Assembly: GCA_036378675.1 (NCBI GenBank) | Contig: DASUWA010000040.1 | Location: 1 to 34,586 of the forward strand | DNA length: 34,586 nt | Source: Acidimicrobiales bacterium | GTDB lineage: Bacteria > Actinomycetota > Acidimicrobiia > Acidimicrobiales > Palsa-688 | Direction: 5' to 3' | Shown: positions 24,357 through 34,586 of the stretch, piece by piece | Layout of the letters: each line of letters opens with the position of its first letter | How positions within the stretch are numbered: position 1 is the first letter of the stretch | Notes under the pieces: generated by a model | Databases searched by the model: none | What the model was told of the DNA's origin: nothing | What the model saw: the letters and a program-made list of their open reading frames with translations, nothing else | Position numbers and translations under genes: made by a program

Positions 24357-24400
24357 GTCGTCGTCTGCGCTCGGCGCTCCGGCGCTCGGGGCATGCGTCT

Positions 24401-24456
24401 GGGTTCGTGCGTCTAGGTTCGTGCGTCTGGGTTCGTGCGTCTGGGTTCGTGCGTCT
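24401..24456. repeat. 14-base tandem repeat, four units
   Basis: GGGTTCGTGCGTCT is repeated head-to-tail at 24401, 24415, 24429 and 24443; the second unit differs by one base. A degenerate unit precedes it (24387-24400, ten matches of 14) and a partial one follows. It lies in the gap after etfD. Near-identity points to recent slippage; copy number may vary between strains. Confidence 0.85.
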
Positions 24457-24519
24457 GGGCGTGGATTTTGCGTTTGGGTGTCGAAAGGAGCCGGATCCTG
24501 GCGAATTCAACGCCCAAAC

Positions 24520-25226: not shown

Positions 25227-25829
25227 TGACTTAGCCCCCGGGACCCTTTTTCGTGGAACCAACAAGTTTCGAGATCGAGGTTTGATTCAAGCTTCGTGAA
25301 CCGGTTAGGCGTGGAGGATCGCGTAAGTCCATCGCTGGCACGGTTCACAACGCTTACGGAAGCTTCGGCGGTGACAAAGCCCCCTTTGGGGGGCTACGTC
25401 AGCGGGGGGTGCGGGTGGAACCCCAAGACGTCCCAAACCGCGTGCCCTCCGACACGACGCACGCTGCCCTCCGGGCGTCGGCTCCCGCCCCTCCACCGGC
25501 TTCACCGGCTACGGGTTGGGCTCGAAGAAACAGTGCGGGCGTTGTGTGGTGACGAAATTGCAGACCGCAGGGGTCTTCGAATTCTTTCGCGGCGAGGCGC
25601 TGTCTCGACAATCGTCGATATCTTGGCGAGCGTTATGCGGAGGCGATAGGCATCGCCGATTGCTTGTCGCTGAAGCGCCAGATCCGTCGTTCGGCGCTAA
25701 CCGCAACCGCGACCGGGGATGCTGCGACGGCGTTCCAGATCGAATGTTCGGCGCCGTCCCAGTAGGAACGTATTCGCAGAGGGGTTCTGTCGCGTCTCGT
25801 CGGTCCGACGGCAGGTCCGGATAGTCTCG
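25227..25829. other. Long stretch without a supported gene
   Basis: About 600 bases separate the membrane protein gene from the broken monooxygenase. Open frames on both strands here have unnatural composition (Arg/Pro/Ser runs) and no motif I know; the longest on the plus strand (25516-25824) begins MGSKKQCGRC but then loses coding pattern. The only clear structure is the hairpin at 25378-25395. Base composition drops slightly in GC and this may mark the edge of the accessory region, or hold decayed gene remains. Confidence 0.5.
25378..25395. terminator. Compact hairpin AGCCCCC-TTT-GGGGGGCT
   Basis: AGCCCCC (25378-25384) pairs with GGGGGCT (within 25388-25395) around a TTT loop. It lies about 150 bases past the membrane protein gene and has no T-tail. 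A terminator is the simplest reading. Confidence 0.4.
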
Positions 25830-27023
25830 ATGACCTCGGGTCTGGGGAGTGGGAGGAGCGTCGGTCTGAGAGTCGGAATCGCAGGTGGTGGGATCGCTGG
25901 GCTTACGTTGGCTGCTGCGCTGGAGCCGCACGGTTTTGACCTAGTCGTATTGGAGCGCCAGCCGGAGGTCCGCGATTCGGGAGCGGGGATCTCACTTTGG
26001 CCCAACGCGCGAGCGGCCCTGGACGTCGCGGGATTGGGGGCAGTAGTGCGTTCGCTGGGAAGAACTCTGGCCGAGGGTGGAGAGAAGAGACTTGACGGAC
26101 GGGTCGCTTTAAACTTCTCGGGGCGTAGCTTCGAGGCGGCGCTGGGCGAGGGATTGGTATGTGTAGACCGCGGCGAACTCGTTCGCGCTCTAACAGCACG
26201 TATTCGCCCCGGCACGGTGCGGACCAGTTGCGCGGTCACCGGCTTCGAACTCGACGCTTCAGGAGTCACGGTCCGCCTGGCTGATGGAGCAAGCCTCGCC
26301 GTGGACGCTCTGGTGGGCGCGGACGGAATCAACTCTGCCGTCGCCAGCGTGCTGAACGGACCTCTACAAACGTCCTACAGCGGTTACGCCGCGTGGCGAG
26401 GAATCGCCGAAACCAGCTACCCACCCGACAGCGACAAACTCTGGGCCTGTCTTGCCGGAGGCCACGAGTTCGGCTGGATGCATGTTGGTGACGATCGCAC
26501 CTACTGGTTCGCCACCTCCTGACTCCAGAAGGGTCAGACATTCGCAAGCGGCGACGACGTCTATCTAAAAGACACGTTCAGCGAGTGGCCCCACCCCATC
26601 CCCGATCTCCTGGCAGCCACCCCTCCCGAGCGGCTCGTGCGGAATGAGATCGTTGACCGCGCCATGCCGGACAGTTGGAGCCACGGAGCAGTGACACTTG
26701 TGGGCGACGCCGCTCATCCCATGCGCCCGCACCTTGGCCAGGGTGGCTGCCAAGCCATCGAGGACGCAGTTGTACTTGCCTCTTGTTTGGCCGAGTCTGC
26801 TGATCCTGCGGTCGCGTTCGCCGAATATGAGAAACGTCGCCGTCGGCGAGCTCGGCTGATCGTGTTCCTCTCGCGGATCTCGGGCTTTACCCGTCCATGC
26901 GGACCGGTTACGACCGCGTTTGACCGGGTGTCCAGGGCCCTTCCCCAGCTTCAAATTGGTCCCGCCGTTCGGGCTATAGCCCCGATAGCCGGATACCGAG
27001 CCGGCCAACGAGCCGTCGGGTGA
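25830..27023 (+). pseudogene. FAD-dependent monooxygenase interrupted by one in-frame TGA
   Basis: The frame encodes a class A flavin monooxygenase of the usual length (about 396 residues) except for TGA at 26520-26522. Before it: the FAD-binding GIAGGGIAGLTLAAALE, VVLERQPEVRDSGAGIS, and the NAD(P)H/FAD segment DALVGADGINSAV, ending YWFATS. After it the same frame resumes at LQKGQTFASGDD and carries GDAAHPMRPHLGQGGCQAIEDA, the FAD-ribityl motif. No other stop or shift is seen, so one base change (such as TGG or CGA to TGA) explains it. The reading is a recent nonsense mutation or a sequencing error. Start ATG 25830 is the best available; Shine-Dalgarno is weak. Known relatives act on aromatic or heteroaromatic rings. 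Confidence 0.8.
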
Positions 27024-27625: not shown

Positions 27626-28747
27626 GTGGCCGCCGCCAACGTGGACATCAGGGGAGAGGTTCGCGGGCTTCGCCTTGAGATCGCAGACGAGATTGCCGCC
27701 CTGTCCGCCGACCAGTGGGATGGGCCGTCTTGGTGCACTGGCTGGCGTGTCCGCGACGTGCTTGGTCACCTTGTGAACATGGCAGAGTCCAGCCGGCTAT
27801 CCATGTTCTGGCAGGTCGCCCGTAACCCTGTACGGCCGGATCGTGTCATTGACCGAGACGCCAGAGCGCTGGGAAGCCGACCCGTACCCGAACTTGTCGA
27901 AAGGCTGCGCCGCTCCGCTGACGGATACGTCCACATTGTTGGCCTACCATCGGAGGTGGGGCTTGGTGATCTTCTCGTTCACAGCGCTGACGCGTTGCGC
28001 CCAGCCGGGATCATGCCCGACCCGCCTCTCGCTGATGTGCACTTGGTACTCGACACCTACAAGAAGTGGGGCCAGAGGGTGGTCCATGCCGCTCCGCATC
28101 GCGGTGTCTCTCTTACGGCGACCGACGCAGACTGGCGTGTGGGCACTGGACCAGAAGTGAGAGGAAACGCGATTGACCTCCTGCTGTTGGTCGCCAACCG
28201 CCGGCAGGTTGTTGACCGGCTCGACGGTCCTGGCGTAGCTGAGTTGGCCGGATACGGGAGCGATTACGTCCGAGCCTGGGCCTCCCGCCCGGCAATCGGC
28301 GCTATGGGCGGCTCAGATCCGGGCCGGAACGACCTTTCTTGCTGCGATCGCGGCTCGTCCTTCGGGCCATTCGCCTTCGGCGGCCAAGTTGAGGACCCGC
28401 CGGAACAGGAGCGTGGAGGCATCAGCTTTGACACTTACCTGGCTTCTGGCCCCGGTTCGCTGTGCGCTTTCCAAGACGACCCGGTCTTGGGCGAGAATCG
28501 GCCCTCCCCGTGGTGTGTACCAGTAACGAGTGCCGCCAACCGGAAACATGAACTCCACTCGGCAGACACCGTCGCCTGTGGGGACGAAGTGGAAGATCGT
28601 CGCCGGTATCCGGGGTCCCTTGTCACCCAAGAGGTGCCGGACGCTGACCGTCACCCTGTTTGGAAGCTCGAACACTACGAGAACGTCTGGGTCCTCGGGT
28701 GTCGGGTCGTTCTCGCCCACGGGCGGCCAGAACATGACGAAGCCTGA
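27626..28747 (+). CDS. MDMPI-like (mycothiol-dependent maleylpyruvate isomerase family) protein with an antisense tail
   Basis: Residues 1 to about 212 form a DinB/MDMPI-type domain: GWRVRDVLGHLVNMAE with H48, and GDLLVHSADALRP with D115 and H119, the likely metal ligands. Relatives of this type usually end near here, after a segment like RLDGPGVAEL. In this copy the frame lacks a stop and runs a further 160 codons, of which the last 145 (28313-28747) are exactly antisense to the Rieske oxygenase gene and have no protein-like features (RSPSPWCVPVTSAANRK). The tail is therefore probably not native: a lost stop or a small shift near 28265 is the simple explanation. The start is GTG 27626. The reaction is unknown; context with the Rieske gene gives no clear pathway. 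Confidence 0.7.
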   Translation: MAAANVDIRGEVRGLRLEIADEIAALSADQWDGPSWCTGWRVRDVLGHLVNMAESSRLSMFWQVARNPVRPDRVIDRDARALGSRPVPELVERLRRSADGYVHIVGLPSEVGLGDLLVHSADALRPAGIMPDPPLADVHLVLDTYKKWGQRVVHAAPHRGVSLTATDADWRVGTGPEVRGNAIDLLLLVANRRQVVDRLDGPGVAELAGYGSDYVRAWASRPAIGAMGGSDPGRNDLSCCDRGSSFGPFAFGGQVEDPPEQERGGISFDTYLASGPGSLCAFQDDPVLGENRPSPWCVPVTSAANRKHELHSADTVACGDEVEDRRRYPGSLVTQEVPDADRHPVWKLEHYENVWVLGCRVVLAHGRPEHDEA

Positions 28748-29341
28748 TTCGGTGGTCCGCAGCTCGTAGGGCGAGTCCTGGCTGCCGTGAAGGAGGCGCA
28801 TATAGAACTGTGGGTGGGTCCACGGGTGAGTGAACACCGGGTGGCACCAGTCGAGGTTGTTCTCAAGTGCCATCTTCCAGTCGCAGCGGAGAATCGCTGA
28901 ACCCTGCACCCCGCCTGTGCGAGCGAACCTTTCGATTCTCGGCGGGTTCGGCTGGTATGGCTCCTTGGCGAGCGACACCCACACGTAGCCGTCCTGTTCC
29001 ACGCAGTTGAATGAGCACACCTTGGCCGTCGAAGGAATGGATTCCCCGTTGAGGGAGGGAATCTCGACGCAGCTACCCGTGGTGTCGTAGCGCCAGCCGT
29101 GATAGCGGCAAGCCAGTGTGCCGTCAGCGACTCTGCCGAGCGACAACTCGACGCCGCGATGGGCGCACCGGTTGGAAAGGGCGGCTACCTGCCCGCCGCT
29201 GCCTCGGAAGATGACCAGATCCTGGTCAAGCACACCGGTGGCGAGGGCCTTCCGCCTGACACGGCTCGACGGGATGGCCGGCCACCACTGCTCGCGGAGC
29301 CAGACGCTTTCGGTTTCCCCGGTCTCAGCTACTGCGTTCAC
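28313..29341 (-). CDS. Rieske non-heme iron oxygenase, terminal subunit
   Basis: This 342-residue oxygenase has an N-terminal Rieske [2Fe-2S] domain with CAH (in NRCAHRGVEL) and CRYH (in LACRYHGWRYD), spaced 16 residues. The catalytic domain has the mononuclear iron motif NNLDWCHPVFTH (N-x2-D-x2-H-x4-H) and a later aspartate in ILAQDRVVLESAQR. It resembles vanillate O-demethylase and related single-component-type oxygenases that hydroxylate or demethylate aromatic or other substrates with a separate reductase, which is not seen nearby. The start is GTG 29341, well supported by AAGGAGG six bases ahead, the best ribosome site in this region. Its last 435 bases overlap the antisense tail of the MDMPI-like gene. 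Substrate is unknown. Confidence 0.9.
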   Translation of the reverse strand: MNAVAETGETESVWLREQWWPAIPSSRVRRKALATGVLDQDLVIFRGSGGQVAALSNRCAHRGVELSLGRVADGTLACRYHGWRYDTTGSCVEIPSLNGESIPSTAKVCSFNCVEQDGYVWVSLAKEPYQPNPPRIERFARTGGVQGSAILRCDWKMALENNLDWCHPVFTHPWTHPQFYMRLLHGSQDSPYELRTTESGFVMFWPPVGENDPTPEDPDVLVVFELPNRVTVSVRHLLGDKGPRIPATIFHFVPTGDGVCRVEFMFPVGGTRYWYTPRGGPILAQDRVVLESAQRTGARSQVSVKADASTLLFRRVLNLAAEGEWPEGRAAIAARKVVPARI

Positions 29342-29430
29342 GTCGCTCCTCCTTCTCAGACAAGAGGTGCTAGAGGGACACTAGGTTCGGCATCCAGTCA
29401 CAGTCCAAAGCTGCCAGCCCCGCTCCGCGA

Positions 29431-29492
29431 CACAGATCGTGAGTGCACCCGGTTATGGTTACACGCCAACCTCGACGCGATATTCGGCGATC
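29431..29492 (+). repeat. Dispersed repeat, copy A (most diverged)
   Basis: By hand alignment about 44 of 59 bases match copy B at 31511-31569 in the same orientation. The shared core includes GGTTATGG, ACACG, CCAACCTCGACGC and ATTCGGCGATC. It lies in the gap between the Rieske gene and a small membrane gene. The CGCCG-GATT-CGGCG hairpin of the other copies is damaged here. Confidence 0.65.
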
Positions 29493-29550
29493 CGGGCGAG
29501 GCAGAGGCCGCTACCCTTATGGGACTGAATGAGATGAGGGGCAGGGTGCG

Positions 29551-29844
29551 ATGGCGGATGCGGTCATCCTTCTGGTCGTGATAGCGATGGTGTGGGGGCT
29601 CTACATCCAAGCGATCGTCATGGCCGCGAGGCGGCCGGACTTTGCCTACAGGGCGATCGGGAGAACGAAGCCAGGCACCGTTGCCATGATCCTTCTCACC
29701 GGCTTCATTGGTGGTCTCTACTTCCTCTTGCGGATCAGGCCGTCGTTGCTCGCTGCTGAGCGTGCGATACCTGCAGGGTCGCTTCCCCCTGCCGACACTG
29801 ACGACATCAAGCAGTGGCGCCGGACTCGCGATCCTTGGTCATGA
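29551..29844 (+). CDS. Small membrane protein, 97 residues
   Basis: Two transmembrane helices are evident (AVILLVVIAMVWGLYIQAIVM and TVAMILLTGFIGGLYFLL), separated by a basic loop PDFAYRAIGRTKPG, with a charged C-terminal tail. Short actinobacterial proteins of this two-span type are widespread and have no known role. The ATG is preceded by a GAGGGGCAGGG stretch. Its stop overlaps the start of the next gene as ATGA (29841-29844), so it is co-translated with the lipoprotein downstream; a joint envelope function is possible. Confidence 0.7.
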   Translation: MADAVILLVVIAMVWGLYIQAIVMAARRPDFAYRAIGRTKPGTVAMILLTGFIGGLYFLLRIRPSLLAAERAIPAGSLPPADTDDIKQWRRTRDPWS

Positions 29845-30698
29845 AACCGTGTATGAGTCTCAGACCCACGGCGAAGCTTGCCCTAGGGGCTCTCCTGACG
29901 GCAGCGATGGCAACGGCGGGGGTGGCCGCAGGCTGCGGGTCGTCTGATTCCATGACTCGGACAGCCAGCGGGCCAGCATTGGTGGATGCTGCTGCTGCGT
30001 TGACCGGAGCATCGACTGCTGAGATCCAATACGCGATCCGGTTCGGCGACCAACCCTCGGTCGTCACGGAGACGCTGTTGTGGGATTTCCGAAGGCAGAT
30101 CGGAGAGGTGCCACCTTCGGGGACCCGCGGCTCACAGGATTACAGCCCCGAACTGATCTTGACCCCCACCGCGGAGTACATGGACATATCCGGGTCCGGT
30201 CTATCGAGCGCCAGATGGCAGCTAGAGACTCACCCGATCGCCCAAGGCACTCAGGCGGCTGTGGAAACACTCCTTGGCCAGCAAGCCCCCACCGCAGACC
30301 TAGGAGCGCTTCTTCGAGCCCTCCAACCGCTCATCCAGACAGTCACACCAGGCGGAACGGGAAACGTGGACGGTACACACGTGAGGTTCTACACGGTCGG
30401 AATCTCTGTCGATACTCTCGAAGATGCCATCAACGCGGACGCTCCCGAGCGGGCCAGGATGGGGCAGTTCTACGGGACCACCCTCGAGCTGCTCATCGCC
30501 ATCGACTCCAAGAATCGGATCGTGCAGATCAGCGAGCACAATCAGTCCGCCTTCGGGCCTGTGGCCGGGACTATCACCTTCAGTCACTTCGGGATCGCCG
30601 TAGAAGTGACCATCCCACCACCCGATCAGACGTACAACCCTCTACAGCCGAGCCAGAACTTCGGCGGAAGTCAGCGCGAATATTCCGCGCCTCGCTGA
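29841..30698 (+). CDS. Putative lipoprotein
   Basis: This 285-residue protein has a basic, hydrophobic signal (LRPTAKLALGALLTAAMATAG) and a lipobox-like AAGC with C32 followed by GSSDS, so it is likely lipid-anchored outside the membrane. The mature part alternates beta strands and loops (YAIRFGDQPSVVTETLLWDFRR, VDGTHVRFYTVGIS, LLIAIDSKNRIVQISEHN). This recalls LppX/LprG-type mycobacterial lipoproteins that bind lipids, but I cannot confirm that. I start at ATG 29841, which overlaps the upstream stop, rather than nine codons earlier inside the previous gene. Downstream is a gap of about 120 bases. Confidence 0.75.
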   Translation: MKPCMSLRPTAKLALGALLTAAMATAGVAAGCGSSDSMTRTASGPALVDAAAALTGASTAEIQYAIRFGDQPSVVTETLLWDFRRQIGEVPPSGTRGSQDYSPELILTPTAEYMDISGSGLSSARWQLETHPIAQGTQAAVETLLGQQAPTADLGALLRALQPLIQTVTPGGTGNVDGTHVRFYTVGISVDTLEDAINADAPERARMGQFYGTTLELLIAIDSKNRIVQISEHNQSAFGPVAGTITFSHFGIAVEVTIPPPDQTYNPLQPSQNFGGSQREYSAPR

Positions 30699-30822
30699 CC
30701 TTGAGAGTCAACCACCCCTCTCACAAATCGTTCCGTCTCGCGCCACCCACGAGGCTCTCCGGGCGACCAGAAACCGCCCGGTAATCGGCGTACAGCGCGG
30801 CAGGAGTAAGGCAAGATTGCCC

Positions 30823-31173
30823 GTGGTGACCGACGAGGACCAACGCGCCAAGTGTTCCTGCTACTACGTTGCAGAGCACCTTGGGCCGGACGCTGAACGG
30901 TATGCAGCCGAGCACCTGAAGGAGGTTCGGAGCCATCCGGTCGAATGGCTGGTTGAGTACCAGTGCCCCCTCTACGGCAAGCGCTGGCTAAGAGATGAGC
31001 CGTGGGGTACTGGTCATGGGGGCGGTCCCTATCGCCTTCGCACCTTCGAGAAGGTTTGTCGTGACCTACGGAGCGAGCTGGGAACGGTCACCGCCCTCCT
31101 AAGCAATGATGCCGAGGCGACAGCCGCCGCGGAGGTCATTCGGCGTCGCTTAGGCGATTGCTCGGAACGCTGA
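30823..31173 (+). CDS. Imm27-like orphan immunity protein
   Basis: This protein of about 116 residues has the pattern HPVEWLVEYQCPLYGKRWLRDEP, then GTGHGGGPYRLR. It matches the W-x-V-x-Y ... G-x-x-W ... HGGGPxxL core of immunity protein 27, which protects against polymorphic toxins. An N-terminal CSCYY precedes it. No toxin, secretion gene or other immunity gene is adjacent, so it may be an orphan that guards against neighbours' toxins. The start is uncertain: GTG 30823, GTG 30826 and TTG 30817 are all possible. A GGCAA-GA-TTGCC inverted repeat (30810-30821) covers the TTG. Family call is by memory of the motif. Confidence 0.55.
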   Translation: MVTDEDQRAKCSCYYVAEHLGPDAERYAAEHLKEVRSHPVEWLVEYQCPLYGKRWLRDEPWGTGHGGGPYRLRTFEKVCRDLRSELGTVTALLSNDAEATAAAEVIRRRLGDCSER

Positions 31174-31253
31174 TGGTGAGAGGCGTCCAGATCTGAGTGC
31201 GCTCACTTCTCGGGGAGGCACACGTAGTCGGTGATCGGGAACACCGGCTGGCG

Positions 31254-31259
31254 TAGTTT
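31254..31259 (+). promoter_or_regulatory. Candidate -10 element (TAGTTT), leaderless start
   Basis: TAGTTT ends seven bases before GTG 31267 with no Shine-Dalgarno between. It supports that GTG over the upstream ATG at 31231 as the true start. Confidence 0.4.
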
Positions 31260-31266
31260 GGTCGCC

Positions 31267-31509
31267 GTGAGCGGCCAGGGGTCACCGGGAATCTGCGACA
31301 TTTGTGGCCGCCCGGTCGGGGCTGAGGCTGCCTTCGTGAATATCGGACCGACGGACTGGACAGATCCCTCGAAGCCCAAGACCCGCCATTGGATTCCAGC
31401 CGGGACTGAAATCCATGGCTGGTCCCCATTCGTCGTCGAGCACCCAGCCTGCTTTGCGGGCGTGAACGGTCAAGCAGCTCTGGATGATCTCCAGGCGCAC
31501 TCGGTCTGA
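31267..31509 (+). CDS. Small putative zinc-binding protein
   Basis: This 80-residue protein opens with GICDICGRPVG, a knuckle-type CxxC, and has a later EHPACF that could supply the other two ligands (His and Cys). Between them is a Trp-rich segment (TDWTDPSKPKTRHW, GWSPFVVEH). I do not recognise a named family. I prefer GTG 31267 because TAGTTT lies seven bases upstream; ATG 31231 would add 12 residues without support. Repeat copy B starts two bases after the stop. Confidence 0.55.
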   Translation: MSGQGSPGICDICGRPVGAEAAFVNIGPTDWTDPSKPKTRHWIPAGTEIHGWSPFVVEHPACFAGVNGQAALDDLQAHSV

Positions 31510-31510
31510 C

Positions 31511-31569
31511 GCCATAACGACAGCGCACTCAGTTATGGAGACACGTCAACCTCGACGCCGGATTCGGCG
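31511..31569 (+). repeat. Dispersed repeat, copy B
   Basis: By hand count 51 of 59 bases match copy C (34271-34330), with one single-base gap. The core is GTTATGGAGACACGTCAACC followed by TCGACGCCGGATTCGGCG. It holds a CGCCG-GATT-CGGCG hairpin (31556-31569) and, only in this copy, CCATAAC (31512-31518) pairing with GTTATGG (31532-31538). Intergenic, same strand as copies A and C. Confidence 0.8.
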
Positions 31570-31715
31570 ATCGCGAGTGGGCGTCAGTCCCCATTGTTTG
31601 GAGCTGTGGTGGCGGCAGAACGCCAACGGCGGGCCGACGATCGGTAACCATGGTCAGGGTCGTCCGACCGGAGTGAGGTCGACGGTGCAGAGCCTCCTGA
31701 CGCGATCTGATCGCC

Positions 31716-31742
31716 GTCACAGGGTCTGGCCAGACTGGTGAC
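31716..31742. promoter_or_regulatory. Near-perfect palindrome touching the start of a two-gene unit
   Basis: GTCAC (31716-31720) and GTGAC (31738-31742) flank a perfect 12-base palindrome GTCTGGCCAGAC (31724-31735), with spacers of three and two bases. The last base abuts the ATG at 31743. CAGACT within it (31731-31736) lies six bases before the ATG and may be the -10 of a leaderless message. The second gene of the unit is an HTH protein, so autoregulation is likely. Confidence 0.55.
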
Positions 31743-31943
31743 ATGAGCCCACCTGACGATGATCCGGTTCCGCCAGGCCTTGTGTTGGGCCTCGAGGAGG
31801 CCTTTCGAGTCTTGGAAGCGCTCGAGGATGCTCTGCACGCCATGGAAGAGGCAGGCGTCGCTCCCGGGCTCCAAGACGAGCTGGCCACCGTCATTCGCCT
31901 TATCCACGGTAAGTTGGGTTTGGACGAAGGAGGCGTCCTGTGA
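31743..31943 (+). CDS. Small acidic helical protein (first gene of a two-gene unit)
   Basis: This 66-residue protein starts with a Pro/Asp-rich tail (MSPPDDDPVPPG) and continues as two predicted amphipathic helices (LVLGLEEAFRVLEALEDALHAMEEAG and LQDELATVIRLIHGKL). It is strongly acidic. No family is recognised. Its stop overlaps the next start as GTGA (31940-31943), so the two products are made together and may bind each other. The ATG directly follows the palindrome at 31716-31742. An antitoxin-like or phage-derived accessory protein is possible. Confidence 0.6.
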   Translation: MSPPDDDPVPPGLVLGLEEAFRVLEALEDALHAMEEAGVAPGLQDELATVIRLIHGKLGLDEGGVL

Positions 31944-32131
31944 GCGAACCTGAGATTTTGCGCCCGGCCGAGGCAGCTCGCCGTCTGGGTGTGCCAACCC
32001 GGGTGGTCATCCAAGCTATGTACGAGAGGAAGCTTCCTCGGCTGCGGCTCGCCGACGGGACCCTCGGGATTCCTTCTGATGCACTGGAGACGTTCCAAGT
32101 TCCAACCGGCGGACCAGCGCCGCAGAGTTGA
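31940..32131 (+). CDS. Excisionase/MerR-like helix-turn-helix protein
   Basis: This 63-residue protein is one winged-helix DNA-binding domain of the excisionase (Xis/MerR-N) type: LRPAEAARRLGVPTRVVIQAMYERKLPRLRLADGTLG, followed by IPSDALETF. The pattern of HTH, then a wing that reads the strand 'LPRLR..DGTLGIP', is typical. GTG 31940 overlaps the previous stop. It could repress its own operon through the palindrome at 31716-31742, or be a recombination directionality factor left from an integrated element; no integrase gene is in the window. Confidence 0.7.
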   Translation: MSEPEILRPAEAARRLGVPTRVVIQAMYERKLPRLRLADGTLGIPSDALETFQVPTGGPAPQS

Positions 32132-32257
32132 ATACGACGTAGCGTCGGCCGACAAGCGCACGCATAATCGGAGCGCCGGTGGTTCTTGACCAAGTCGGGT
32201 CGGGGCGAACCGAATCGGGGCTCGGATCGGGTCCGACGAGGTGGTAGAGAGTCGTAC

Positions 32258-32428
32258 ATGTCCCCTGCCGGGCCGCCTCACCTTCCGCTATCTCCCGACC
32301 AGGTCTTAGCCTACCAGCAATGGGCACGGAGCCACGAAGGGCCAGCTCCCTTTCGCGATCCCGAAGATCCTCTCGACCACCTCGCAATGATTCGCCAGCT
32401 GGCGGAAGCCTTCAGCGGACGATCCTGA
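32258..32428 (+). CDS. Small hypothetical protein, 56 residues
   Basis: Reads MSPAGPPHLPLSPDQVLAYQ then QWARSHEGPAPFRDPEDPLD and an amphipathic end (LAMIRQLAEAF). No family is recognised. The ATG at 32258 has GAGAG and TAGAGA about seven bases upstream; the frame is open to 32186 but that part is Arg/Gly-rich. Composition and residue pattern look like a real small soluble protein. Confidence 0.45.
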   Translation: MSPAGPPHLPLSPDQVLAYQQWARSHEGPAPFRDPEDPLDHLAMIRQLAEAFSGRS

Positions 32429-32447
32429 TGTTCTCTGCTGGATCGCC

Positions 32448-32645
32448 GTGGCCGATATGGAGGCGTTGATTGACATGCACTGGCCCGATGTCATTGACGA
32501 GGTCGAATCGGCGGCGACCGCATCGGCAGCCCTCCGCCGCGTGATTTCCTGTTGCTACTTCGACGACGCTACCCCTGACTCTGTCCAGGCTCGGCTTGCC
32601 CGGTTGGTGGGACCGGACGACGATATCGGTCATCTGCCTGCGTAG
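32448..32645 (+). CDS. Small hypothetical protein, 65 residues
   Basis: Reads as an acidic helical protein (MEALIDMHWPDVIDEVESAA, then SAALRRVISCCYFDDATPDS, ending GPDDDIGHLPA). No family is recognised. It begins at GTG 32448, 19 bases after the previous small gene, without a clear ribosome site; ATG 32457 is an alternative start. It is likely co-transcribed with its neighbours. Confidence 0.45.
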   Translation: MADMEALIDMHWPDVIDEVESAATASAALRRVISCCYFDDATPDSVQARLARLVGPDDDIGHLPA

Positions 32646-32792
32646 ATGACGCAGAACGATCCTCATACGGCGCTGCGGACCGAACAGGGGAACGACTCCA
32701 CTGAGGCTCGGGATTCGGCGATCTCGGACACCCTCAGCGGAGTGGACACGGGCTGGCTGTGGGCGCATATCGCTGGACCAACAGTGAGATGA
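32646..32792 (+). CDS. Possible 48-residue peptide
   Basis: An ATG directly follows the previous stop (TAGATG) and opens 48 codons (MTQNDPHTALRT ... DTGWLWAHIAGPTVR). It contains CGGGATTCGGCGATC, which resembles the end of the dispersed repeat. It may be chance or a decayed repeat copy; the case for a gene is only its position. Confidence 0.2.
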   Translation: MTQNDPHTALRTEQGNDSTEARDSAISDTLSGVDTGWLWAHIAGPTVR

Positions 32793-32892
32793 GCTGCACT
32801 TTCAATCACCCGAATATCCAGGTCAGCTCCAAGCGGCCTGCGGGTGGATCACCCACGAGGTTCGGGGGCGACCCACCGGCTGTGGCTCATGT

Positions 32893-32898
32893 CAGAAT
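32893..32898 (+). promoter_or_regulatory. Candidate -10 element (CAGAAT), leaderless start
   Basis: CAGAAT ends six bases before GTG 32905 and no Shine-Dalgarno is present, the same layout as other genes in this region. Confidence 0.35.
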
Positions 32899-32904
32899 CG
32901 CGAC

Positions 32905-33717
32905 GTGAGAGGCGCCACGGGCGGGATCGCCATCAGGGTGTCCCTCGGGATCGCTGGTCTCACACTGGCAGCCTGTGGGAGTTCGGGGATCCGCTCGGCG
33001 ACCTCTGCGAGCGGCACGACCGGATCGACGGTGCCGTCAGTGTCAGGGCACCACACCGTGTACTTCCGCCCGGTGCTGTGTGAGCTCCCTTCCAGTACCC
33101 CCGCACCGACTGTGGCCCCCACGACATATCCGTATCCGAGTGTTCCTCCAACGTCTGTTCAAGTTGGATCCTCCTCGACATTTCCCCCAACGTCGAGTCC
33201 CCCCGCGTCCTACCCGCCAGTTTCACAGTCGGCCGCTAGTCCACAGGCGGCGAATCCGGGCGCATGCGGCGATCAGGCCCTTTCCTCGATAACCGACACC
33301 GGCACCGGGACCGAGACCGCAGCGAAGAAGGTGATCGCGCCCTACTACCTCGCTGCGGCGTCACCGCGTTACGTGCTCGGTCCAGCTGACATGACCGGAT
33401 CGGCGATAGCCACGGCCGAAGCCATCTCCACGATCGGGCAGTACCAGATTCAGCTCACATTCACTGCAGCGGGATCTGGGGACTTCAACGCGGTAGCAGC
33501 CCAGCGCTATTCCTACTATCGGCAGAACCCGAGCAATCCGCCTTACCAGAGCCTGGAGGCCATTGAGGTTGACGGCAAGGTCGTGTCCGCCCCGGAGATC
33601 CAAGTTGCCAGTTTCAACGGTACGGCCGTCATCAGCGGCTCAACCACTGCACCCTTCTCGAAGGAACAAGCCTCAACCATCGCTCAGGAGATCCAACTCG
33701 CCAGATGGCAGTCCTAG
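32905..33717 (+). CDS. Lipoprotein with a SecD P1-head-like domain
   Basis: This 270-residue protein has a signal sequence with lipobox LAAC (C24), then a Ser/Pro/Thr-rich linker to about residue 115, then a domain that resembles the head subdomain of SecD's first periplasmic loop. The matching parts are APYYLAAASPRYVLGPADMTGSAIA, QYQIQLTFTAAGSGDFNAVAAQ, EAIEVDGKVVSAPEIQ and GTAVISGSTTAPFSKEQASTIAQEI. In SecD these are VLGPAEVTG, WxVxLTFTxxG, AIVLDGxVISAP and GxAxIxGxFTxxEAxxLA. It has no SecD transmembrane helices, so it is not a translocase subunit; it is an anchored stand-alone head domain of unknown role. GTG 32905 gives the full signal peptide. Confidence 0.8.
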   Translation: MRGATGGIAIRVSLGIAGLTLAACGSSGIRSATSASGTTGSTVPSVSGHHTVYFRPVLCELPSSTPAPTVAPTTYPYPSVPPTSVQVGSSSTFPPTSSPPASYPPVSQSAASPQAANPGACGDQALSSITDTGTGTETAAKKVIAPYYLAAASPRYVLGPADMTGSAIATAEAISTIGQYQIQLTFTAAGSGDFNAVAAQRYSYYRQNPSNPPYQSLEAIEVDGKVVSAPEIQVASFNGTAVISGSTTAPFSKEQASTIAQEIQLARWQS

Positions 33718-33816
33718 CACTTCATTCAGTGGAGCCAGAACGCGCGCACATCCGGTCACTGACCGACCACGGCCACGCGCTCGATATTCCGGTGATCTGG
33801 CGTGCGCAGCCGGGTG

Positions 33817-34254
33817 CTAACTCACGACCATCAGAGATGCGTACAGGGTGGCACTGAGATTCCTCTCCGGGTTGTTGATGTCCTGCCTGACCCGATACCC
33901 ACCGGGTTCCACCGGGGGGACGAGCAGTCGGTACGGCCTGACTGTCCGCCCAACTCGTGCAAACGACACCTCGCTGTCGATTGCAATCGCCTGCGGCTCG
34001 GTCCCTCCCGGCTCTGCGACGGTCAGGTAGTTGATGGACCGCCACTGTCCGGTGATTTCAGCCTCCAGCATCACTTAGATGCCGTGGATGAATCCTTCTG
34101 TTGAACCAGTCGTGTTGGCCGAGACGCACTGGCCGGGCCGGACGGACGCCGGATTCAACATCAACCGGACATCGCCAGGTGGGTCTGGCCGCACCGGCAA
34201 GGGTGGTGCGGACTTCGGCGTTTCCGTCACGGACTGAAGGCTAGAACCAGTCAT
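33817..34254 (-). pseudogene. Beta-rich (Ig-like) protein gene interrupted by one in-frame TAA
   Basis: On the minus strand one frame runs from ATG 34254 to the stop at 33817 with a single TAA at 34075-34077. The first 59 codons give PPGDVRLMLNPASVRPGQCV and end STEGFIHGI. Directly after the TAA the same frame gives VMLEAEITGQWRSINYL, then PYRLLVPPVEPGGYRVRQDI and LSATLYASL. The two halves together read like one Ig-like/beta-sandwich domain with the usual pattern: V-x-P-G near the start, G-x-W in the middle, and PGxYRV near the end. TAC or TAT (Tyr) to TAA would explain the break. GTG 34074 just after the stop could in principle restart a truncated protein. There is no signal peptide. Confidence 0.55.
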
Positions 34255-34270
34255 CCCGGCCCGCGAGCGC

Positions 34271-34330
34271 GCCAGAACGTGAGCGCATCCGGTTACGGAG
34301 ACACGTCAAGCATCGACGCCGGATTCGGCG
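34271..34330 (+). repeat. Dispersed repeat, copy C, followed by TTTT
   Basis: It matches copy B at 51 of 59 aligned bases, including GGAGACACGTCAA and TCGACGCCGGATTCGGCG. The terminal CGCCG-GATT-CGGCG hairpin (34317-34330) is followed by TTTT (34331-34334), giving a terminator-like end. Seven bases after the hairpin the sequence turns into the structured segment starting GTGTG at 34338. Confidence 0.8.
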
Positions 34331-34337
34331 TTTTGCG

Positions 34338-34586
34338 GTGTGTCCTGAAAGGAGAGTGATGGTGACGTAGAAGGTTGCTAACACGATCCGTGCTGTGCCG
34401 GTGATGGAGGTTGGCCCTCCGGGACCGCCGATCAGGCGGAGGTCTCAAACCACCGCAAGCGGCTGCGGTTAAGAGTCGTGGTCGTGAGCGTTGCGGTAAA
34501 AGGCCCGCTGTCAGCGGGTCAGGTGGGCGACGAGAAGACGAACGTGAGTGAACCACTGCTGACGCATCGAAAGCCGAAACGATGGC
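34338..34586 (+). mobile_element. Possible 5' end of a group II intron (cut by window end)
   Basis: From 34338 the sequence begins GTGTG, matching the group II 5' consensus GUGYG, and becomes densely self-complementary. CCTCC pairs with GGAGG around 34416-34442, ACCGCA with TGCGGT around 34450-34470, CCCGCT with AGCGGG around 34503-34517, and CATCG with CGATG around 34566-34584. Segments such as GACGAACGTGAGTGAACC and CATCGAAAGCCGAAACGATG recall the purine-rich joins and GAAA-type loops of intron domain I. It holds no credible protein frame. The junction follows a hairpin plus TTTT, the kind of target used by class C introns. No reverse transcriptase is visible because the window ends. An IS-associated structured RNA is an alternative. 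Confidence 0.35.

Follow-up and report, generated by a model that had tools for sequence, protein, structure and literature searches.

The window analysed in this work is a stretch of 34,586 nucleotides that makes up the entire contig C40 (DASUWA010000040.1) of the draft genome of an Acidimicrobiales bacterium (GCA_036378675.1), and its right-hand part carries several copies of a repeat, here called the site, between small genes (Table 1). The original prediction had reported three copies of this repeat on one strand, and all three (A, B and C) are indeed present where it placed them, with 47/60 identical aligned columns between A and B, 50/61 between B and C, and 47/61 between A and C. A fourth copy, which had been overlooked, lies 15-19 bp past the stop of the open reading frame (ORF) 32905-33717, and copy B starts 2-4 bp past the stop of ORF 31231-31509. 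When copy B was used as the sole query against its own genome (G000; contigs cited without a genome belong to it), copy C was returned at E=1.9e-12 and copy A at E=4.0e-8, values which mean that the repeat is not due to chance, together with an extra copy on contig C57 (31220-31279, minus strand; E=5.1e-10). None of the ORFs in the unit between A and B has a match above a Pfam cut-off, ORF 29551-29844 showing a weak match to DUF2516; in the following unit ORF 31940-32131 is a weak helix-turn-helix (HTH) match and ORF 32905-33717 belongs to SecDF_P1_head.

Table 1. Sites, gene units and intron in the window, and segments shared between genera.
Feature	Position	Strand	Details
Weak partial site, right part only	28261..28307	+	E=0.0011; possibly chance
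Site copy A	29431..29494	+	E=1.2e-14 (first model), 7.1e-12 (second model)
Gene unit between copies A and B	29495..31510	+	small ORFs 29551-29844, 29814-30698, 30817-31173, 31231-31509
Site copy B	31511..31573	+	E=6.0e-13 (first model), 5.1e-12 (second model)
Gene unit between copy B and fourth copy (unit 2)	31574..33732	+	ORFs 31743-31943, 31940-32131, 32258-32428, 32448-32645, 32905-33717
Weak partial site, right part only	32685..32725	+	E=0.0069; possibly chance
Fourth site copy	33733..33800	+	E=1.7e-9 (first model); 33735-33799, 3.9e-7 (second model)
Gene unit between fourth copy and copy C	33801..34269	-	minus-strand ORF 33817-34074, no Pfam match
Site copy C	34270..34338	+	E=5.9e-15 (first model), 3.1e-14 (second model)
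Group II intron, 5' part, cut by contig end	34338..34586	+	RF01999, 110.8 bits; starts directly past copy C
Shared segment	C43 / G007:C100		80%, 650 bp
Shared segment	C43 / G006:C54		78%, 405 bp
Shared segment	G020:C42 / G007:C103		85%, 720 bp
Shared segment	C8 / G010:C140		74%, 923 bp
Shared segment	G010:C140 / G012:C134		75%, 468 bp; no site found on G012 side
Shared segment	C8 / G027:C115		81%, 706 bp
Shared segment	G007:C103 / G027:C62		81%, 526 bp

In a looser comparison the three reported copies proved to form a subgroup within a larger family. The site measures 62 bp and has sharp ends, being composed of a 26-bp core, a variable middle mostly of 17-18 bases and the block ANTCGGCGATC; on the strand of the original prediction it reads CAGAACGTGAGCGCATCCGGTTACGG, the variable middle, and then A-N-TCGGCGATC, and the columns of the flanks carry at most 0.4 bit each. 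These features were counted in a set of 48 copies, from which matches ending before model position 52, having a weak right block or repeating a left half had been dropped. The spacing between the aligned blocks was 17 or 18 nt in 37/48 copies (full range 11-33 nt), and within the core AAC was present in 33 copies, GTT in 27, both in 17 and GCGCA in 32. The candidate arms CNNAAC and GTTNNG around GCGCA are imperfectly inverted and complementary only in part; judged from the bases, we read this arrangement as the possible layout of a tyrosine-recombinase core.

The original prediction had called for a genome-wide search and held that an absence of other copies would tell against it; many further copies were found. 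A first model, built on sequence only from 14 copies, gave 30 matches in the own genome at E<=0.02. A second, built from 30 copies, gave 28 copies there at E<=1e-3, and at this threshold identified copies in 12 of the 32 genomes of the family, distributed over 10 of its 16 genera. The training copies of the second model came from G000, G001, G007, G012 and G027, so that matches in these genomes are not all independent, and genomes outside the training set were matched as well (G006, G008, G010, G013, G016, G020 and G023). In a class-wide search of 296 genomes only the own genome matched at E<=1e-5; the filters of this search were stricter, recovering only 17 copies in G000, so that weak copies may exist elsewhere. 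Plasmid and phage collections gave no match to the 301 bases around copy B, and a 25-base core pattern had 0 matches in viral contigs. We found no description of such a site or cassette system in a literature search, whose coverage excluded subscription papers and preprints.

Neighbouring sites on the same contig form arrays of a single orientation: among the second-model matches 24 of 25 adjacent pairs were co-oriented, including all 18 pairs in the own genome, and copy starts were mostly 0.3-4 kb apart. Nine sites lie on the minus strand of contig C22. The genes between or beside the sites encode, by Pfam, APH, GNAT, NUDIX, L-PSP, epimerase, ArsR, AHSA1, hydrolase and TPR proteins, in addition to PIN-domain modules, nitronate monooxygenase (NMO), an AAA/Zeta_toxin-like kinase and a glyoxalase-fold protein, and this content is typical of accessory cassettes. 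Many genes of C22 oppose the strand of the site as originally described and stop just ahead of a site; the genes of the window mostly run with that strand. A tRNA suspected from the flank of a C16 copy was not detected by ARAGORN in the stretch L070.

BLAST comparison of the fetched stretches identified segments of 405-923 bp common to different genera, with 74-85% DNA identity and differing surroundings. In 7 of the 14 unique homologous pairs an end of the homology lay within 120 bp of a site (these pairs leave out the L129/L110 rows, which are two loci of one genome, and one duplicate; the sites of L088 and L102 were positioned manually). Counted by ends, 13/46 were found this close to a site, as compared with 3.3 for random placement (0/20000 as high) and 4.4 for sham sites placed in intergenic gaps (0/5000 as high). 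This count includes weak sites with E up to 0.1; a strict count limited to sites at E<=1e-3 gave 9/40 ends versus 2.8 for sham sites (3/5000 as high). Two junctions were clean. Between G007:C103 and G027:C62 the alignment covers the core through GTTCTG and the cassette that follows it, but neither the element's middle nor its other flank, and between C8 and G027:C115 the homology ends at TGACGTTCT; in both, the break falls where the core ends in GTTCT(G).

The reading with the best support is one that the original prediction had raised, namely a recombination site at which gene modules are joined, and it draws its support from the co-oriented arrays and from the cross-genus cassettes whose homology ends cluster at sites. 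We consider that the repeats are probably site-specific recombination sites at the borders of mobile gene cassettes, belonging to a system that resembles integrons and occurs in one family of Acidimicrobiales. In such a system a recombinase, probably a tyrosine recombinase, would bind the CNNAAC/GTTNNG arms around the conserved centre GCGCA, and exchange of DNA at the core would lead to insertion or excision of the adjoining gene unit; the block ANTCGGCGATC may be an accessory or second binding site, and the site would act as double-stranded DNA. A number of observations weigh against this proposal. The sole inverted neighbour pair flanks the recombinase gene of G007:C100, and the genes, as called by a simple codon-based caller, have no uniform orientation with respect to the sites. 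The other 7 of the 14 homologous pairs have neither end near a site, and the shared segments could have moved inside larger islands. Relatives of unit 2 of the window exist in other genomes, and among 19 loci with relatives of the window's own genes only one had sites, two weak matches and none clear; no clear site thus adjoins these relatives, and movement of the window's own units was not observed. Neither an excised circle nor an empty site nor a difference between strains was observed. Furthermore, no recombinase could be linked to the sites, and the type found beside them in G007 was not detected at E<=1e-20 in the site-bearing genomes G000, G010 and G013.

The system most similar in its layout is the integron, with its arrays of attC sites or integrase-less attC clusters (CALIN): in both, co-oriented sites of about 60 bp lie between small accessory genes, conserved ends enclose a variable middle, breaks occur at a GTT-containing end and a group II intron adjoins a site. 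Integron group IIC introns are known to insert past attC hairpins (PMC7923331), and here the intron starts directly past copy C; of eight intron copies whose 5' end could be read, three lie, judged by eye, in or after site sequence (window, C43 and G027:C74), one of the eight having only 23 bases of flank. The intron family itself occurs in several family genomes (window 34338-34586; L069 8619-8864; L223, L225, L226 and L228). A divergent canonical integron, in which the repeats would be attC sites whose folded bottom strands are recombined by an IntI absent from the assemblies, is nevertheless unlikely. The integron integrase model TIGR02249 had 0/32 family genomes above its cut-off of 265 bits (best score 71.6 bits; the assemblies are drafts), RYYYAAC was present at the left end of 0/48 copies and GTTRRRY at the right end of 1/48, and the site, unlike attC, has a conserved internal 26-bp block and lies among genes of mixed orientation. 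Folding also argues against it: RNAalifold found no common fold in 31 copies, and DNA folding of the 48 copies was no better than that of shuffled sequences or flanks (mean z -0.29 and -0.30 by strand versus -0.31 for flanks). Swapping right halves among the 48 copies did not lower complementarity (z=0.8; 4235/20000 permutations as high), a procedure which invariant pairs would escape, and the proposed check for covariation in the stem found none.

These folding results bear equally on the hairpin CGCCG-GATT-CGGCG, which is present in copies B and C as originally described and is not a family-wide feature. This hairpin and the intergenic position are what speaks for a regulatory or terminator element or for decayed gene ends, readings which we regard as very improbable. 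A simple scan of 28000-34586 found no terminator-like site, and neither a conserved hairpin or stem nor excess folding was found in the family; the element's middle is variable both in its bases and, over the range given above, in its length, so that a reading frame is not kept as it would be in decayed gene ends, and genes occur in mixed orientation around the sites. Dispersed non-autonomous repeats of the repetitive extragenic palindromic (REP) or miniature inverted-repeat transposable element (MITE) type, disseminated by a transposase and accumulating in variable islands where the intervening genes are incidental, would share the short length, the intergenic position, the high copy number and the proximity of mobile elements, as with the IS110 transposases situated 34 bp from a C22 copy and about 0.5 kb from a C57 copy. 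This explanation, to which we give a little more weight than to a canonical integron, is still an improbable one: such repeats do not account for the one orientation per array, the sites have no obvious palindrome or terminal inverted repeats, and they border gene units whose homology ends at them beyond both the random and the sham controls.

The search for the enzyme of a cassette-exchanging system led to a 304-aa XerC-like recombinase, which adjoins sites on both G007 contigs carrying its gene. Of the five sites in G007, four are on these two contigs, within about 3.1 kb of the gene, and one site ends 58 bp from its stop. The motif TTCTGGGSGC was found within 40 nt of the stop of such recombinases at 7/52 loci, versus 0/545 control windows. 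That this protein is the system's enzyme is possible though doubtful. It does not co-occur with the sites across the family, several genomes carrying the G007-type recombinase without sites; a site at E<=1e-3 was found at only 2 of the 77 recombinase loci scanned (80 were fetched; L214, L217 and L219, from other phyla, were left out), and weak site-like scores (3 bits) past the recombinase stop were mildly enriched at 7/52 versus 19/545. In L116, L153, L168, L171, L187, L193 and L204 TTCTGGG is found at the base of a G+C-rich hairpin soon past the recombinase stop, which is perhaps the recombinase's own attachment site. A two-recombinase operon beside the C22 array (P0002/P0003; L018 13920-16210), with overlapping tyrosine recombinase genes, was at first considered integrase-like. 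Several of its relatives are gene pairs on contigs about 3 kb long (L248, L250 and L254), and such pairs occur in G020 and G031, so that a multi-copy two-gene transposon is the more likely identity; among ten stretches retrieved for this operon, together with G006:C21, just two had a site.

Duplex sites bordering gene modules are known from the Xer pdif sites of Acinetobacter, where gene modules, including toxin-antitoxin genes, are arranged in rows between short sites with inverted arms; each pdif site is of 28 bp, has 11-bp XerC and XerD arms and a 6-bp centre, and occurs in C/D and D/C directions (PMC12907356). Compared with pdif modules as set out there, our arrays have in common the gene modules in rows between short sites, here with candidate inverted arms, and differ in the length of 62 bp, in sequence and spacing, and in the one direction per array. 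Since defining features of both integrons and pdif sites, among those looked for, are lacking, we file the site family under neither, although it would work like attC or pdif. A further, tentative step is to regard it as an exchange system separate from integrons, in which duplex 62-bp sites and a further recombinase trade accessory genes among Acidimicrobiales; this may be so, and we hold it with less confidence than the role of the repeats as recombination sites. To our knowledge integrons are nearly absent in this phylum. If the proposal is true, a cassette system of their own would show how members of the phylum shuffle small accessory genes, and it would suggest more than one origin for arrays of exchangeable cassettes. 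The site model can be used to map such arrays.

Some additional features were noted during the analysis. G000:C33 and G007:C100, the latter with several copies, share a repeated segment about 115-126 bases long (L073 2610-2861 and L116 16677-17218), which is probably a repeat-protein gene. In the window, a FAD_binding_3 monooxygenase at 25719-27023 is represented by two ORFs (25719-26522 and 26637-27023) which correspond to the beginning and end of the family profile and are possibly an interrupted gene. Past a gene end, at 24385-24459, there is a tandem repeat with a 14-base unit in four overlapping copies resembling GGTTCGTGCGTCTG. Finally, bases 1-141 of the window are identical (100%) to the final 141 bases of C22 (L018 16143-16283), and given this overlap contigs C40 and C22 are probably neighbours.

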